Part shown: positions 2,595 to 10,424 of the stretch, in pieces
Position numbering within the stretch: position 1 is the stretch's first letter
Layout: the number at the start of each line of letters is the position of its first letter
Source of the DNA: Bacteroidota bacterium
GTDB taxonomy: Bacteria > Bacteroidota > Ignavibacteria > UBA10030 > UBA8401
Length of the DNA stretch: 34,312 nt
Assembly (NCBI GenBank): GCA_005792285.1
Contig: SXSI01000026.1
Location: forward strand, 1 to 34,312
Direction: 5' to 3'
Translations under genes and position numbers: made by a program
Notes under the pieces: generated by a model
What the model was told of the DNA's origin: nothing
Databases searched by the model: none
What the model saw: only the letters and a program-made list of their open reading frames with translations

Positions 2595-2634
2595 ACACCT
2601 TTAAAAAAATTGTTATTCAAACAAAAAAAGATTT

Positions 2635-4740
2635 ATGAAAAAAACATTTTTACTATTTTTCTTTTTAACAAACATTGCATTTTCTCAAGTTGGCATAGGT
2701 ACAACAACTCCAGCTGCTACATCGCTACTTGATGTAACCAGTACAACAAAAGGATTTCTTGTGCCAAGAATGACTACAACTCAAAAAGATGCAATAAGTT
2801 CACCTGCAACCGGTTTATTAATTTACCAAACCGATGGAACTGCGGGGTTTTATTATTACACAGGCAGTGCTTGGATATTGATTACTACAGAACTAATATC
2901 TAAAACCGAAGGAACTGATTTTACTGGAGGCTTGCTGGTAGGGCACAAAACTACAGGAACTTTGAGTGCTGCAACTTACAATACAGGCGTTGGGATAGGT
3001 GCATTGAGTTCAATTACAAGCGGAGACTACAATACAGCAAGTGGCTATCAGGCATTTATTTCCAACACCACAGGAAGTAACAACACTGCAATAGGTGTCG
3101 CTGCTATAGATAGAAATACTGCAGGTAATTACAATGCAGTTCTTGGTGCTTTTTCAGGAAGATATATTGCCGATAATGCAACATATAATACAGCAATTAA
3201 TAATTCCGTTTTAGTTGGAGCATTATCTAGGCCATTAGCAAATGATGCAGTTAATGAAATTGTTATCGGGTATAACGCAATTGGAAATGGGTCAAATACT
3301 GTAACACTTGGCAATAGTAGTATAACAAATGTAAAAACCAGCGGTACTATTACGGCTGGTGCAGTAACTTATCCAAATTCACATGGGACCGCTAATCAAG
3401 TATTGAGCACCACAGGTAGCGGAACTTTAACTTGGACTACACCCGCAGCTGGTGGAGCAGTAGCTGCGAATGAACTAACTGGCACAACCTTAACATCAAC
3501 AGTAACAGGGTCTAGTTTAACAAGTGTAGGTACTTTGGCAAACTTAACGGTAACCAATCCTATAGTTGGTAGTGTGTCTGGTAATGCTGGAACAGTAACC
3601 ACGAATGCGAACTTAACAGGCCCTGTTACCAGTGTAGGGAATACTACGGCTATAGCAGATGGTGCTTTATCGATTGCTAAGACGAGTGGGTTGCAAACGG
3701 CCTTAGATGCAAAAGCACCTTTAGCAAGTCCAACATTTACCGGAGTACCGCTAGCACCTACCGCTACTGCAGGAAACAATACAACACAAGTTGCAACAAC
3801 TGCGTTTGTTACTAATGCGGTTACCTCTGGTAGTGCTACTAATGTTACGGGCGTAGTTGTTGGCGCTAATGGAGGTACTGGAGTGGCTAATACGGGTAAA
3901 ACGATCACCTTAGGGGGCAATTTAACTACGTCTGGAGATTTTGCCACTACGTTAATATCAACTGCTACCACTTCAGTTACCTTACCTACTACTGGAACCC
4001 TGTCTACGTTGGGTGGGACAGAGACACTAACTAGTAAAACATTAACGAGTCCAGTACTTACGACACCTGCTTTAGGCACTCCTGCTTCAGGTGTTGCAAC
4101 AAATCTAACTGGGCTTCCATTAACAACCGGTGTTACTGGCACATTAGCTGTTGCCAATGGTGGGACAGGTTTAACCGCAGTGGGAACGAGTGGTCAGGTA
4201 TTGTCCACCAATTCCGGTGGAACTTTAACTTGGACCACACCCTCAGCTGGAGCAGTCACGCATACTATTGGAGAATCTTATGGTGGAGGTATAGTATTTT
4301 ATGTCTATGACAATGGTAAACATGGTTTAATTGCAGCAACATCAGATCAAAAAGCCGATCCCGGAAGGAGGTGGTATGGTGGTACATATGTAAATACAAG
4401 AGCAAGAGCAGATGGGGTTGGCGCAGGAATAAAAAATACTGCAATAATTATTGCAAATCAAGGAGTAGTAGATGGCGAAACTTTTGCTGCAACGATTTGT
4501 AATGAGTATTCTGTAACTGTTAATGGAGTAACTTACGGTGATTGGTACTTACCTTCAAAGCATGAACTTAATTTACTTTATTTACAAAAGAGTATCGTTG
4601 GCGGTTTTGCGAATTACCCCTATTGGAGTTCTACGGAGTACAGCTATGTAGAGGCAAATGCTCAGGATTTCACCCAAGGCACTACTAGCCTCCCCGGTAA
4701 GAACAGCCCCTACCATGTTCGCGCCATTAGGGCTTTTTAA
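2635..4740 (+). CDS. chimeric tail-fibre-like protein with C-type-lectin-like variable C-terminus (candidate DGR target)
   Basis: A 701-residue exported protein. Residues 1-18 are a signal peptide. Residues 19-85 are nearly identical to the fibre at 107, also in DNA. Residues about 115-235 hold degenerate YadA-like repeats. Residues about 250-540 resemble phage tail-fibre sequence: [16 protein letters not shown]-type, [16 protein letters not shown], and two copies of a [13 protein letters not shown] motif near residues 253 and 520. Residues about 543-701 form an Lcl/DUF1566-type C-type-lectin-like domain: [19 protein letters not shown], then [20 protein letters not shown] and the end YHVRAIRAF. 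That fold and ending are typical of DGR target proteins. Residues 662-693 carry the codon pattern expected of a mutated template. The likely role is diversified ligand binding at the surface. Function is inferred; the family also occurs without DGRs. Confidence 0.8.
4618..4740 (+). other. candidate DGR variable region (VR)
   Basis: The stretch covers codons 662-701 and the stop of the gene at 2635. Bases 4621-4740 are 59/120 G+C (49%), far above the AT-rich surroundings. Between E668 and H694, 12 of 26 codons end in C, and all three Ser codons are AGC, both Pro codons CCC and the one Leu codon CTC, although this genome prefers codons ending in A or T. AGC, CCC, CTC, TAC and AAC can all come from AAC by changes only at adenines, and GGT, ACT and TAT from AAT. 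The segment then ends in an unvaried-looking GC-rich tract (about 4713-4733), where an initiation-of-mutagenic-homology site would sit. No template repeat was found in the window. Confidence 0.6.
4705..4738 (+). terminator. weak terminator-like hairpin overlapping the stop codon
   Basis: AGCCCCTA (4705-4712) can pair with TAGGGCT (4728-4734) with one bulged C, around a 15-base loop, and is followed by a run of T at 4734-4738. It could end transcription, but it lies inside the coding end whose sequence is constrained by the VRAIRAF-like motif, so it may be chance. Confidence 0.25.
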
Positions 4741-4764
4741 CTATTTAACTATTTTACAATTTAC

Positions 4765-4792
4765 TTGTCCCCCCGACCATTCGGGGGGACAA
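4765..4792. other. perfect 12-bp GC-rich hairpin/cruciform after the VR
   Basis: The arms TTGTCCCCCCGA (4765-4776) and TCGGGGGGACAA (4781-4792) pair without mismatch around the 4-base loop CCAT. It starts 24 bases after the stop codon. Neither strand has a T-run after the stem, so it is not a normal Rho-independent terminator. DGR targets such as that of phage BPP-1 have a short GC-rich hairpin with a 4-base loop just downstream of the VR, where it helps target recognition. The loop here does not match the GRNA-type loops reported for those elements. Confidence 0.7.
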
Positions 4793-5061
4793 AAATATAG
4801 AAAATACAAAATGGTATTTTAACTTCCACAGTAGTAAACATTTTACACGAATTAGCAATTTTAATAATACAAAACAATACCACTTATCTGGGGGGGTAAT
4901 TTGATAAAACACCTAATTAATTAACCTCTAATAGCGGCTTTTGTAGTATCTCTTTTTGTGGATGTTTAGTAACATAACATGAAGAAAAAAGAAAATTACT
5001 AAAATACATACCATCCAACAGTAGAAGAAATAGTAGTTTTGATTTTAAAAATAAATATTCG
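4793..5061. other. gene-free stretch, no clear content
   Basis: AT-rich DNA without a supported gene. It contains a run of seven G at 4890-4896 and a short ATG-started frame at 4979-5002 that stops after seven codons. No reverse transcriptase, template repeat or RNA gene could be seen here. Confidence 0.4.
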
Positions 5062-5133
5062 CAGCAAATTCAATCTGAACTAAAAGACGAAGTAAGTAAA
5101 CTGAAATTAAGATCTGAAAAAAATATACTTTGA
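5062..5133 (+). pseudogene. relic of an S74 fibre coiled-coil tail
   Basis: The frame from 5062 reads QQIQSELKDEVSKLKLRSEK and then NIL and stop. It aligns with the ends of the fibre at 107-1486 ([10 protein letters not shown]) and of the partial copy at the left edge (EVNKLKSKSEK). No start and no S74 domain precede it. It looks like the left-over tail of a third fibre copy, perhaps the original 3' end of the gene now ending at 4740. The match is short. Confidence 0.45.
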
Positions 5134-5159
5134 AGGAATAAAAAATCAAAATTAAATAT

Positions 5160-5181
5160 AAAAAAAGCCACGAGAAGTGGC
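5160..5181 (-). terminator. Rho-independent terminator of the S46/BNR operon
   Basis: Read on the - strand, GCCAC (5181-5177) pairs with GTGGC (5171-5167) around a 5-base loop and is followed by seven T (5166-5160). It lies about 33 bases after the S46 peptidase stop. On the + strand the stem is followed by CTTTTAATTT, so weak activity from the other side is possible. Confidence 0.7.
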
Positions 5182-5214: not shown

Positions 5215-7269
5215 TTATCCTTCGATCTCGCTCACTAATTCTTTAGCATCGTAAATATTTTTTAGGGCTTCCATCATTCCACCTGTATGAACCGAAACCG
5301 CTCGGTTTGCAAAATCGTCGTAAACAAATCTTCCAACTAAACTTTCAATATTTCCATCGAAAATTAATCCAACAATTTCGCCGTTTGCGTTAATAACAGG
5401 CGAGCCGGAATTGCCACCAATAATATCGCACGATGAGACAAAATTTAATGGTGCATAAGGATTGATTTTATTTTTCTTATCCCAATAATTTTTTGGAAGT
5501 TCGAAATCACCTTTATTATCAAATTCCATAGCGCGTGTAAATAATCCACCGTAAACAGTTTTATACGGTGCAATTGTTCCATTCATCGGATAACCTTTAA
5601 CAGAACCATAAGCAAGTCGTAATGTAAAAGTTGCATCGGGAGATTTATCGCTTCCATAAACTGCAAAAAGAGCTTTGCCAATTTTTTCACCAGATGGCGT
5701 TACAACACTCGAAATATTTTCTTCTTGCCAAGTTATCATTTCGCGACTCATTGCGTCGTACTCGCGCATTAAAACAATCATCGGATCGGTTGATTTATTT
5801 AGTGCACTAATTCCGCCATCAGAAAGTTTTTTTCTAAAATCAGGATTTATTAATTCCGAAGTTGAAAGAGCTTTTGCAGTTTGCTCAATTGATTTATTTT
5901 TTAGCACCATTTTTACAAATTGATCATTTTCTCCGAGTACTGAAATAATTTCATTTAATCTTGCCGAGATTACAAATTCTTCCATATCTGAATAAATTGG
6001 TGCAGGACTGAAGAGTTGCATTTTTAAAGATGCAAGTTGTGCTTCATGGTAACCATCAAATCGTTTGGAATCTTCTTTTGCAGTTTCATTTATATATCTA
6101 ACTAATGTTAAACCACGAGATGCAAGTGTTGAACCGGCGAGAGATCGATAAAAAAGTTCATTATATCTGGAAATTAATTTTTTATAAGCAATTTCAATAT
6201 CGCTCCAAGAAGAAGAATATTTTGAATTCAACTCGCTTTGTAGTGATAATCTGCTTCGTAATTCATTTTCTTCTTTTTGTTTAGTTGCGGTAATTGCCGG
6301 ATTTTTTAAACCATCATATTCTCCAATTGAGGCCTTTAAAGAATTTTCTAAACTAAAAATTTGTTCCTTTGCTTTTCTTGCATTTTCCGGATTTAATACT
6401 GAGAATTTTTTTAAGGCTGCAATTCTTACTTTAAAAGTTTTTAATCTTGCAGGATAACTATAATCTCTGTTAAAATTAAATTGCGCCATTGTTTGTAATC
6501 TATTTGTTGAACCGGGATGACCGCTAACAAATACAAGTTCATTCTCACTTGCGCCAGCACTATTCCATTTTAAAAAATTAGTCGATTGAAGTGGTTTATC
6601 GTTTTCATAAATTCTAAAAATTGTCATGTCCAAATCATATCTTGGGAAAGTAAAATTATCTGGATCACCACCGTAAAATGCAATTTGTTGCTCGGGGGCA
6701 AAAACCAAACGGACATCGGTATATTTTTTGTAACGATAAATCCAATATTCGCCACCATTATAAAGAGTTACAATATCAGATCGAAGTTTAGTTTTTTCTG
6801 TACTTTCTTTTTCAAGTGAAGCAAATATTTTTTTCCGTGCTTCAAGTGCATCTTTGGGATTCATATCGCTTTTAACTGTAGAATTAATTTTAGCGGTTAC
6901 ATTTTCCATTGAGATTAAAACATTTAATTCTAAATCGGTGCATTTAATTTCTTTAGAATTCGAGTTTGCATAAAATCCAACTTTCACATAATCAATTTCA
7001 GGTGATGACATTTTTTGTAATTGTCCCAATGCAACATGATGATTTGTTAAAACTAATCCGGTTGAGCTAATAAAAGATCCACTTCCGCCATCGTTAAAGC
7101 GAACTGAAGAAAGTTGAATTTTTTCCAACCATTCTTTAGTTGGTGTAAAATTATATCTCTCTTTTAATAATTTATAAGGTGGATTGTTGAAAGTCCACAT
7201 TCCTTCATCACCAAAGAGTGATGTTATTGAAATTGTAAAAATAATTACAAGAAGTTTTATTTGTTTCAT
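5215..7269 (-). CDS. S46 family dipeptidyl-peptidase (DPP7-like)
   Basis: Serine exopeptidase of 684 residues that should release dipeptides from the N-terminus of peptides in the periplasm or at the surface. Residues 1-20 form a signal peptide. The mature start DEGMWTFNNPP is typical of the family. The catalytic triad can be read as H78 (TNHHVA), D214 (PRYDLDMTIFR) and S621 (GGNSGSP). Eighteen residues after the serine stands G639 (IFDGN). In this family Gly at that place goes with a preference for hydrophobic P1 residues (DPP7), Arg with acidic ones (DPP11), so a DPP7-like specificity is inferred. Length is usual for S46. The ATG overlaps the TGA of the BNR gene by 4 nt, which implies coupled translation. 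It is the last gene of the operon. Confidence 0.9.
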   Translation of the reverse strand: MKQIKLLVIIFTISITSLFGDEGMWTFNNPPYKLLKERYNFTPTKEWLEKIQLSSVRFNDGGSGSFISSTGLVLTNHHVALGQLQKMSSPEIDYVKVGFYANSNSKEIKCTDLELNVLISMENVTAKINSTVKSDMNPKDALEARKKIFASLEKESTEKTKLRSDIVTLYNGGEYWIYRYKKYTDVRLVFAPEQQIAFYGGDPDNFTFPRYDLDMTIFRIYENDKPLQSTNFLKWNSAGASENELVFVSGHPGSTNRLQTMAQFNFNRDYSYPARLKTFKVRIAALKKFSVLNPENARKAKEQIFSLENSLKASIGEYDGLKNPAITATKQKEENELRSRLSLQSELNSKYSSSWSDIEIAYKKLISRYNELFYRSLAGSTLASRGLTLVRYINETAKEDSKRFDGYHEAQLASLKMQLFSPAPIYSDMEEFVISARLNEIISVLGENDQFVKMVLKNKSIEQTAKALSTSELINPDFRKKLSDGGISALNKSTDPMIVLMREYDAMSREMITWQEENISSVVTPSGEKIGKALFAVYGSDKSPDATFTLRLAYGSVKGYPMNGTIAPYKTVYGGLFTRAMEFDNKGDFELPKNYWDKKNKINPYAPLNFVSSCDIIGGNSGSPVINANGEIVGLIFDGNIESLVGRFVYDDFANRAVSVHTGGMMEALKNIYDAKELVSEIEG

Positions 7270-10200
7270 TTTGTTTCCTTTTTTAATCCGATTAATGGTA
7301 AAGATTTTTCGTGAATCATTGAATTTAATTTTGCGACATCTTCATTTAAAATAATTTTTAATTTACCAAGTTCTGTATCAACTGATTGTGCAAGTTCCTG
7401 ATACGCATCATAAACTTGTTTTGCTGGTGCAGTATAACCAGTAGCAGCTGCATCATAAACTCCGGACAATTTATCATCTAATCTTATGGGGAAGTTCAGT
7501 ACATCTTGTCCACTTTTAGCTTTTGTTTGATGAAGTGCTTCTTCAACTAAAGTTATTTGTTTATTAATTGTATCGACTTGTTGCTTAATTTCTTTTGGTA
7601 AATCTTTTCCAACTCTTGCTTCAAAATCAGTTAATTGTTGTCGAACATCACGAATATTTTTTATTCCTTTAATTATTTCAGAAAATTTATCTCTTGCAGT
7701 TAAAAGGAAATTAAATTGTTCGTCGTATTCAGTTTGAGTTGTTTTGTAATTTGGATCGGATAGTATTGTAAAAGAAGTTTCAGATGAGTCTTTATCTAAT
7801 TTAAATTTTGCGGTATAATTTCCCGGAGATGCTTTTGGACCACCAATTGATCCGTTCCAAATTATTAATCCTTCAAGTTTTTCTGCTTCCGGATAATTCA
7901 TATCCCAAACAAATTGATTCATTCCTTTTGAAATATCAAGTTTATTTTCTTTTGAAGAAGTTGAAAAAGTTTTTATAGATTTTTTATTTTTGTCGAAAAT
8001 TTCAACTGAAAGTTTAGTTGAGTCGTCAACATTCTTCAGAAAATAATTTAGTATAACTCCATTTGGTGGATTTGTGCCGACATTTTTTAAGTTGATATTG
8101 AAATTTCCAAATCTGCCACCCATTCCCATCATTCTGTAAGATGGATTTACATCAAAAAGAAAAAGATTTTTATTCACGATATCTGCATTTTTATTTTGAA
8201 CAACAGTTAAATCGTCGAGGATGTAAATACTTCTGCCTTGAGTTCCGACAATGAGATCATTGTTTTTAATTGCAAGATCGGTAATTGGTACTATTGGTAA
8301 ATTAAGTTGAAATGATTTCCAGTTTTCGCCGTTGTCGTAAGAAATATACATTCCATATTCAGTACCTGCATAAAGAAGTCCGGCTTTTTTATGATCTGCG
8401 CGTAACGCTCTTGTAAAATGTAATTTATTAATTCCATTATCAATTCGATCCCAATTTTTACCGTAATCATCTGTTTTATAAATGTATGGTGAAAAGTCAT
8501 CGAGTTTGTATCTTGTTCCAACAAAATATGCAGTTCCTTTTTTAAAAGGATCAACTTCAACACAATTCCACATCATAAATTTTGGAAGATCTTTTGGAGT
8601 TACATTTACCCAATTTTTTCCACCATCTTTACTTACATGAATTAACCCATCATCACTTCCACTCCATAATAAATCTTTTTCAAGTTGACTCTCTGTTGCA
8701 GTAAAAATTGTACAATAATATTCTACCGAAGTATTATCTTTTGTAATTGGTCCGCCACTTGATGCTTGTTTTGATTTATCGTTTGTAGTTAAATCGGGAC
8801 TGATTGATTCCCAACTTTTCCCTTCATTTTCAGAAACAAATAAATGGTTTCCGGCAGCATATAATTTTTTTGGATTATGCGGTGAAAAGAAAATAGGGAA
8901 GTTCCATTGAAATCTATATTTAGCAGCTTCAGCTCCGGCTCCCATATTATCAATTGGCCAAACATTTATTTGGCGAAGTTCGCCAGTTTTATGATCGAGG
9001 CGTTGCAAAGTTCCCATGTAATTTCCGCCATAAGTTATTTCAGGATTAGTTGGATCAGCGACAACATACCCACTTTCATTTCCAGCAGTAATATCCATGT
9101 CTTGCATTGTTATCGATGAACCATAAGTTCTGCTTTTAATTCTGAAAGCAGAATTATCTTGTTGGCCACCCATTACACGATACGGGAATGCATTATCTGT
9201 ACTCACACGATAAATTTGAACTGTTGGTTGATTTAAATAAGTACTCCAATTTTTTCCGGCATCAAAAGAAATTTGTGCACCACCATCATCAGCAACAATC
9301 ATTCTATTTCCATCTTCAGGGTCAATCCATAAATCATGATGATCACCATGTGGAGTTTGCAAACTTTGAAAAGTTTTTCCTGCATCGTTACTGTACATAA
9401 AACCAACATTCGGGCAATAAACTTTATTTTCATTTTTTGGATCGACAAAAACTTTTGTATAATACCAAGCACGTTGACGAATATTATTATCGTTTCCGGC
9501 GAGAGTCCAAGTTTCTCCAGCATCTGAACTCATGTACAAACCACCATCTTTATTTTCAATTATAGAATAAATTTTTTCTGAATTTGAAGGAGCAACTGCA
9601 ACACCAACAATTCCCCAAATTCCTTTTGGTAATCCTTTTTTTGTGGAAATATTTGTCCAAGTTTCTCCGCCATCTATACTTTTATATAATCCACTTCCAT
9701 CGCCGCCACTTTCGAGACTGTAAGGAGTTCTAATTAATCTCCACATTCCGGCATAAAAAACATTTGGATTTCCTGGCTCCATAACTAAATCACTACAACC
9801 AGTTTGATTATTTACGAATAAAGTTTTTTCCCAAGTTTTTCCGCCATTTGTGGTTTTAAAAATTCCGCGTTCTTCATTTGGACCAAATAAATGTCCCATC
9901 GCTGCCACCCAAACTACATCTGGATTTTTCGGGTGAATAATAATTCTCAAAATATGTCGGGTATCTTTTAGTCCAAGATTTTTCCAAGTTTTTCCGCCAT
10001 CATCAGTTCTCCAAATTCCGCCGAGACCTTCGCTAACATTTCCTCGCATTGTATTTTCCCCTTCGCCGACGTAAAGAATTGTCTCATCACTTGGTGCAAT
10101 TGCAACTGCGCCAATTGAACCACCGAAAAATTTATCGGAAATATTTAACCAATTACTTCCGCCATCTGTAGTTTTCCAAACACCACCACCAGTTGCGCCA

Positions 10201-10424
10201 AAATAAAATGTATTTTTATTTTTGTAACTGCCAACTGCGGCTGCACTTCTACCACCACGAAATGGGCCAATTAAACGATATTTTGTTTTAGAAAATAATT
10301 GCTCATCAACACTTTTAGTTAGTTTTGATGTTTGTCCGATTATAAAGTTTTGGTTAAAACTTAAAATTAAACAGAGACAAATAACTAAAACTTTAGTTGA
10401 ATTAAGTTTGAAGATGTTAATCAT
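7266..10424 (-). CDS. secreted BNR/Asp-box propeller protein (sortilin-VPS10-like)
   Basis: A 1052-residue exported protein. Residues about 1-30 form a signal peptide. The first ~700 residues carry at least ten Asp-box-type repeats, such as TTDGGSNW, TDDGGKTW, TTNGGKTW, SIDGGETW, SSDAGETW, SNDAGKTF, SKDGGKNW and SYDNGENW, which build one or two large beta-propellers as in sortilin/VPS10 and sialidase-like folds. RNTMRGN-like and ILDDLTVVQ segments are common in bacterial members. A beta-type domain (about 750-880) and a helical C-terminus follow. Such proteins are often labelled glycosyl hydrolase, but no catalytic set of a sialidase was identified, so enzyme activity is not claimed. AGGAG lies 6 bases before the ATG. 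The 4-nt overlap with the S46 peptidase suggests that both act on exported or environmental proteins. Confidence 0.85.
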   Translation of the reverse strand: MINIFKLNSTKVLVICLCLILSFNQNFIIGQTSKLTKSVDEQLFSKTKYRLIGPFRGGRSAAAVGSYKNKNTFYFGATGGGVWKTTDGGSNWLNISDKFFGGSIGAVAIAPSDETILYVGEGENTMRGNVSEGLGGIWRTDDGGKTWKNLGLKDTRHILRIIIHPKNPDVVWVAAMGHLFGPNEERGIFKTTNGGKTWEKTLFVNNQTGCSDLVMEPGNPNVFYAGMWRLIRTPYSLESGGDGSGLYKSIDGGETWTNISTKKGLPKGIWGIVGVAVAPSNSEKIYSIIENKDGGLYMSSDAGETWTLAGNDNNIRQRAWYYTKVFVDPKNENKVYCPNVGFMYSNDAGKTFQSLQTPHGDHHDLWIDPEDGNRMIVADDGGAQISFDAGKNWSTYLNQPTVQIYRVSTDNAFPYRVMGGQQDNSAFRIKSRTYGSSITMQDMDITAGNESGYVVADPTNPEITYGGNYMGTLQRLDHKTGELRQINVWPIDNMGAGAEAAKYRFQWNFPIFFSPHNPKKLYAAGNHLFVSENEGKSWESISPDLTTNDKSKQASSGGPITKDNTSVEYYCTIFTATESQLEKDLLWSGSDDGLIHVSKDGGKNWVNVTPKDLPKFMMWNCVEVDPFKKGTAYFVGTRYKLDDFSPYIYKTDDYGKNWDRIDNGINKLHFTRALRADHKKAGLLYAGTEYGMYISYDNGENWKSFQLNLPIVPITDLAIKNNDLIVGTQGRSIYILDDLTVVQNKNADIVNKNLFLFDVNPSYRMMGMGGRFGNFNINLKNVGTNPPNGVILNYFLKNVDDSTKLSVEIFDKNKKSIKTFSTSSKENKLDISKGMNQFVWDMNYPEAEKLEGLIIWNGSIGGPKASPGNYTAKFKLDKDSSETSFTILSDPNYKTTQTEYDEQFNFLLTARDKFSEIIKGIKNIRDVRQQLTDFEARVGKDLPKEIKQQVDTINKQITLVEEALHQTKAKSGQDVLNFPIRLDDKLSGVYDAAATGYTAPAKQVYDAYQELAQSVDTELGKLKIILNEDVAKLNSMIHEKSLPLIGLKKETK

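Follow-up and report, generated by a model that had tools for sequence, protein, structure and literature searches.

Two questions are raised by a 701-aa protein encoded in a Bacteroidota genome: whether its C-terminal tip was written by a diversity-generating retroelement (DGR), and whether that tip is still being rewritten. The window analysed here, 34,312 nucleotides long, is the entire contig C17 of a 1.68-Mb draft genome (50 contigs, 95.6% complete). The protein consists of a signal peptide, an N-terminal head, a repetitive stalk and a C-terminal Lcl-type lectin domain (Table 1). A first-pass annotation of the same DNA had proposed that its last codons form a DGR variable repeat (VR) and that the gene is diversified; the sequence, the reading frame and the ...YWSSTE...YHVRAIRAF ending are all as that annotation gave them.

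Table 1. Features of the VR-bearing gene and its downstream region (window coordinates), with the evidence for each.
Feature	Position	Strand	Evidence
Native N-terminal part	2615..2914	+	83% identity to 87-386 over 300 nt
Target gene, 701 aa	2635..4740	+	ORF and translation
Shared module: stalk end, Lcl domain, VR, hairpin, avd start	4145..4821	+	blastn, 76-78% identity, E ~2e-139
Lcl_C/DUF1566 C-type-lectin-like domain, 159 aa	4261..4737	+	phmmer, AlphaFold and Foldseek
DGR-type variable repeat, codons 113-159 of the domain	4597..4737	+	homolog entropy and codon profile, limits of L144, inferred template
Stretch off the template framework, codons 129-134 (TAT GTA GAG GCA AAT GCT)	4645..4662	+	inferred-template alignment
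AT-rich spacer CTATTTAACTATTTTACAATTTAC after the stop codon	4741..4764	+	alignment with L039, conserved in homologs
Hairpin, perfect 12-bp stem, 4-nt loop	4765..4792	+	z = -6.6
avd start remnant (ATGGTATTTTAA...)	4811..4832	+	alignment with L039

Profile and fold together place the C-terminal domain in the Lcl_C/DUF1566 family. The Pfam Lcl_C (PF07603) match covers residues 632-699 with an E value of 8e-6 and, at 26.5 bits, lies below the gathering score of 34.9; phmmer matches the domain to the C-terminal domain of Legionella Lcl (8q4e, E 6e-13). With an AlphaFold model of the domain (pLDDT 81), Foldseek returns 8q4e as the best PDB match (E 1.6e-6; about 26% identity), followed by the Bacteroides fimbrial protein 4eps and by C-type lectins. 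By the phmmer match, the model and the translation, the VR stands at the C-terminus of a target with a C-type-lectin fold, and DUF1566 is common among the target domains of DGRs (PMC4159848, PMC6642488). Legionella Lcl (8q4e; PMC11162425) shares with the window protein the fold, the terminal motif and the layout of a secreted stalk protein; its tip binds glycans, its solved structure is that of a single adhesin, and diversity-generating retroelements go unmentioned in the text of that paper. Judged from its fold and signal peptide, the window protein probably acts as a secreted adhesin with a single, fixed binding specificity, and its tip would bind a ligand on a surface or a glycan.

Codon-level alignment of 74 homologs, from which entropy and codon profiles were derived, reveals that variation in this family is concentrated on the codons of the VR and found almost nowhere else. 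From codon 113 of the domain onwards the framework GGF...YWSSTE.....AW.Q.F..G.Q....K.....VRAIRAF is almost invariant, whereas the 22 positions set into it are near-random, with a mean entropy of 3.3 bits and 84% NNY codons, compared with 2.5 bits and 52% NNY at variable positions elsewhere in the domain (p = 7e-6 for the NNY contrast). In the window the VR is the last 47 codons, 22 of them hypervariable within the constant framework. A real template/VR pair, that of the DGR locus L144 described below, puts its beginning at about 4597 (GTTGGCGGTTTT) and its end at about 4737, so the extent first proposed, 4618-4740, was too short. NNC codons occupy 12 of the 22 variable positions versus 79 of the gene's 653 other codons (p = 4e-6); for NNY the counts are 19 of 22 versus 348 of 653 (p = 0.002).

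The codon choices that had drawn attention to this stretch stand with some narrowing. As the first-pass annotation had stated, CCC encodes every Pro of the VR and CTC its sole Leu; none of the other 55 Leu codons in the gene is CTC. The annotation's observation of AGC for Ser applies to the three Ser at variable positions, the two Ser of the framework being encoded by AGT and TCT. The jump in GC content over 4621-4740, given as about 49%, is real (49.2% measured versus 31.5% for the window), but high GC is not by itself unique to this region, as the stalk at 3400-4260 reaches 46-53%. The stalk would suit a reading in which high GC and C-ending codons are merely the foreign composition of a transferred gene. 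That reading is rejected by the contrast inside the domain, where the adjoining 4261-4596 has only 36% GC and 54% NNY codons and the VR has 51% GC; the NNC excess at variable codons relative to the rest of the gene also speaks against it, and we give plain composition almost no credence.

Two of the homolog genomes carry DGR loci, one of them intact, whose templates encode the framework with Asn at the variable positions. The intact cassette, L144, comprises a target, a hairpin, avd, a template encoding YWSSTEYNNNNAWNQNFNNGNQNNNNKNNTNYVRAVRGF and a 400-aa reverse transcriptase (RT) with GNLTSQ and YVDD; when this template is compared with its own VR over codons 113-157, nearly all mismatches face template adenines. 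At the second locus, L145, which lies next to another DGR, a comparable template is accompanied by an avd that is truncated and an RT truncated at its 5' end. Rewriting with errors at adenines is shown for the family and would have produced the window copy as well. Measured against the real L144 template, the window VR is mismatched at 23 of 44 A sites and at 21 of 73 other sites. The phage DGR L326 was considered as the origin of the template lineage and rejected, because it and the VRs disagree at 36-47 of 97 non-adenine sites.

The closest homologs of the window module are L036, from an isolate of Aquirufa antheringensis, and L039, from a MAG (CANFOM010000008). Upstream of the VR these two differ by 9 nucleotides over 110 codons (95% amino acid identity, 97% DNA identity), whereas in the VR they differ by 36 nucleotides over 45 codons (51% amino acid identity), with 34 of the 36 changes at codon positions 1 and 2 and only 2 at the third. 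The window protein is 84-87% identical to L036 and L039 outside the variable codons, but of the 23 variable residues it has only 1 in common with either. Even so, it has the same third base as L036 and as L039 in 17 of 23 variable codons (p = 0.0004 and 0.001), compared with agreement at only 17/46 and 11/46 of the first and second bases; such third-base agreement is expected if all three were written from one template lineage. Lectin tips evolve fast, and ordinary positive selection on a binding loop, with no retroelement, would also accommodate the few variable window codons that are not NNY (GTA, GAG, CAA). It accords poorly with the restriction of L036/L039 changes to the first two codon positions, the third bases being kept as C or T, and with the near-identity of their upstream DNA. 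Codon-level randomness also ends exactly at the template limits, and real templates carry Asn codons at the variable positions. The L144 pair refutes selection for the family; selection might still account for the drifted codons 129-134, but as the origin of the variable tip we consider it very improbable.

A template was also inferred from L036, L039 and the phage contig L302, with the window left out and A set wherever the three differ; of the 45 sites that differ, 42 are first or second codon positions. In the window VR, changes from this template affect 33 of its 57 A sites and 13 of its 84 non-A sites (p = 2e-7), a concentration on adenines of which the A-setting rule builds in a part, the codon-position bias being independent of the rule. 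Templates with the same framework, the variation among homologs and the adenine excess together bear out the original proposal of a DGR-type VR at the tip of the Lcl/DUF1566 domain.

The same comparison reveals how far the window copy has moved. In leave-one-out comparisons, L036, L039 and L302 have 1-3 non-adenine mismatches versus 13 in the window, which argues that the window VR has not recently been rewritten from the inferred template. Codons 129-134 hold 8 of the 13, including Trp133 to Asn, and the departures at codons 129-134, 139 and 142 are not adenine-directed. The first-pass annotation had derived the variable codons from AAC or AAT by adenine changes alone, a derivation that left unmentioned GTA (V130), GAG (E131) and CAA (Q139), which cannot be reached in this way. 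The framework around them, described as unmutated, is interrupted at codon 133, where AAT replaces TGG, and at codon 142, where ACT replaces CAG, neither replacement being obtainable from AAC or AAT via adenine changes. At codons 129-134 the VR has either drifted since it was last rewritten or was written from another template. The window VR fits the inferred template yet has drifted.

DGRs with Lcl_C/DUF1566 targets from the human microbiome and Bacteroidota (PMC4159848, PMC6642488) resemble the window in their C-terminal VR and its framework, and intact relatives carry a hairpin and avd directly downstream, whereas the window gene has neither RT nor template with it and only the beginning of avd is left. 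The spacer behind the window stop codon aligns with that of L039 at a score of 75 versus a shuffle maximum of 42, and the window hairpin lies where intact DGRs and homologs have a CCGC/GCGG hairpin between VR and avd. The terminal 22 nt of the VR are identical among L036, L039 and L302 and have exact matches in the IMG/VR contigs L302 (117.6 kb) and L303 (65.6 kb); we infer that this conserved 3' end and the hairpin just downstream serve as IMH. The window avd remnant meets a stop after 3 codons and retains only about 15 recognisable bases. In L039 avd begins with ATGGCATTATATTAC at the same distance, and the layout runs on into an avd cut after 63 residues.

Truncated avd genes also follow the VR in L035 (36 residues), L095 (27 residues) and L112 of Legionella tucsonensis (38 residues), and a whole-genome search found further avd pieces, nearly all N-terminal, which indicates that targets repeatedly keep just the VR-proximal start of avd. 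In the Legionella tucsonensis isolate, the region after position 8519 of L112 holds a VR-type Lcl gene followed by the hairpin and the cut avd, and no close DGR RT was found in that genome. Another arrangement occurs at L205:3806-5080 (genome G150), where a target gene is accompanied by a full-length avd (114 aa) with no adjoining RT or template; the RT search of G150 found none.

The remaining DGR components are missing from the window's genome. Searches of this 95.6%-complete assembly with RVT_1 and with the L144 DGR RT gave no match, leaving it with no DGR-clade reverse transcriptase, and no Avd and no second Lcl domain were found there. Neither BLAST nor the codon pattern detected a template or near-repeat of the VR in the window and its genome; an adenine-tolerant template pattern, which allowed only about one real mismatch, found none in the genome, and the codon pattern for this template type occurs in 0 of 391 genomes of the class. 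The complete-looking congener G001 contains no RT, avd or template. The first-pass annotation had looked to a near-repeat of the VR beside a DGR RT as the sign of a diversified gene and to the lack of both as evidence against one; neither was found in the 95.6%-complete draft assembly. Its suggestion that the gene is diversified in this organism is therefore not sustained, and the non-adenine drift in the VR and the mere stub of avd behind it also count against present diversification.

An active DGR could instead act in trans, with RT, Avd and template in the missing part of the genome or on an unbinned plasmid or prophage. Remote targets occur in known DGRs (PMC4891356, PMC8144416), the hairpin and the VR 3' end are intact, about 4% of the genome is missing from the draft, and an RT locus was possibly lost from a 50-contig assembly of this completeness, as DGR loci can break assemblies. 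The absence of RT, avd and template from 95.6% of the genome and from G001, together with the excess of non-adenine mismatches over L036, L039 and L302, makes an active trans-acting system unlikely. We judge it probable that 4597-4737 is the VR of a DGR target separated from its retroelement, carried on a module that was acquired sideways and with a tip that is now frozen. With no RT, Avd or template in the draft genome, the tip is most likely frozen and looks like a captured variant.

The gene itself is a chimera of a native N-terminal stalk and a lectin module. Its N-terminal part is a paralogous copy of the 5' end of the neighbouring gene (107-1486), and blastn homology to L036 and L039 starts only at 4145-4147, running to 4747 with L036 and to 4821 with L039; the N-terminal stalks of those two genes differ. 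A native N-terminus, combined with homologs on other stalks that match only from this point, indicates that the lectin module was joined to it, presumably after arriving by transfer. The target gene is absent from G001, the sole congener examined, where other genes adjoin the conserved neighbour of 7266-10424. A 79-bp leader-like direct repeat at 1-79, 1429-1507 and 5085-5163 (91% and 61% identity) is found ahead of two stalk genes and again behind the VR gene; it may delimit a gene unit that was duplicated or inserted. Of the neighbouring secreted proteins (107-1486 and 1490-2527), one has a Peptidase_S74 (endosialidase chaperone) domain and the other a Por secretion-system (T9SS-type) C-terminal sorting domain.

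A sequence of events that would account for this gene begins in another lineage, whose DGR RT and Avd would have copied a template with errors at adenines and overwritten the VR. The template would have encoded VGGFANNNYWSSTE(N)5AWNQNFNNGNQNNNNKNNTNYVRAIRAF, and its copying would have randomised about 22 residues on the ligand-facing tip of the lectin-fold domain. The module (stalk end, lectin domain, VR, hairpin and first avd bases) would then have been transferred and joined to the native N-terminal stalk, itself copied from the neighbouring gene. The tip would since have been frozen and would now be drifting by ordinary mutation.

The same VR occurs in phages. Of 72 nt of VR framework, L302 shares 70 with L036 and 63 with the window, whereas upstream of the VR the L302 gene has only 55% nucleotide identity with the window; the same framework DNA in a phage gene with unrelated upstream sequence is a further point against selection on a lectin loop. 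The L302 gene, at 2793-3605, encodes a Thr/Ser-rich stretch, and the VR closes its Lcl-like domain. A DNA pattern search found the 5' part of the framework in 17 viral contigs, two of them with three tandem targets. In these two (L315:5752-6778 and L317:2881-4009; IMG/VR 3300020185_004330 and _000312), three ORFs of about 111 aa are spaced at 344 bp, and the VRs at their ends, all of this framework, differ from one another; the ORFs are possibly phage targets rewritten in trans. No RT or template was found in the phage contig stretches examined (L302, L303 and the tandem-target contigs), and L315 and L317 also have no avd there. A single-protein scan of viral contigs with domain peptides gave no match, because the peptides chosen sit upstream of the VR, whereas DNA patterns of the framework did find the phages. 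The presence of the same VR DNA in phages suggests a transfer route.

Targets separated from their RT are frequent in this family. Of 58 genomes searched, most of which carry such domains and many of which are incomplete MAGs, only 6 yielded a close DGR-type RT (identity of at least 55%), and 17 further genomes yielded one more RT fragment, of 52 residues. L036 and L039 are kin of the window module on differing stalks, and DGR RT searches of both genomes found none; L039 retains its 63-aa avd, and the VR of the Aquirufa antheringensis isolate is as clean as in active systems even though the RT search found none. Orphan targets have precedent in Treponema denticola, isolates of which carry target genes with no RT or template (PMC4891356, Table 1). 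There, as in the window, VR-bearing targets stand alone, the core DGR having been lost or the target acquired by itself; the Treponema denticola targets have FGE-sulfatase domains and belong to one species, whereas the VR lineage of the window spans several phyla and phages and leaves an avd stub. Surveys that require an RT beside the VR miss RT-less targets, a limit stated by Roux et al. (PMC8144416). RT-less targets are thus already known; their high frequency in this family and the VR DNA that chromosomes and phages share were less to be expected.

More tentatively, such modules of lectin domain, VR, hairpin and avd stub may travel alone among freshwater Bacteroidota, other bacteria and their phages, at a distance from any RT, either as frozen binders diversified beforehand or as targets rewritten in trans on meeting a matching DGR; as part of the same conjecture, one template lineage may imprint the same VR on host and phage genes that are otherwise unrelated. 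If this were general, most DGR-written lectin tips would be passed on and exchanged ready-made, and DGRs would have left their mark far more widely than the DGR machines themselves occur.
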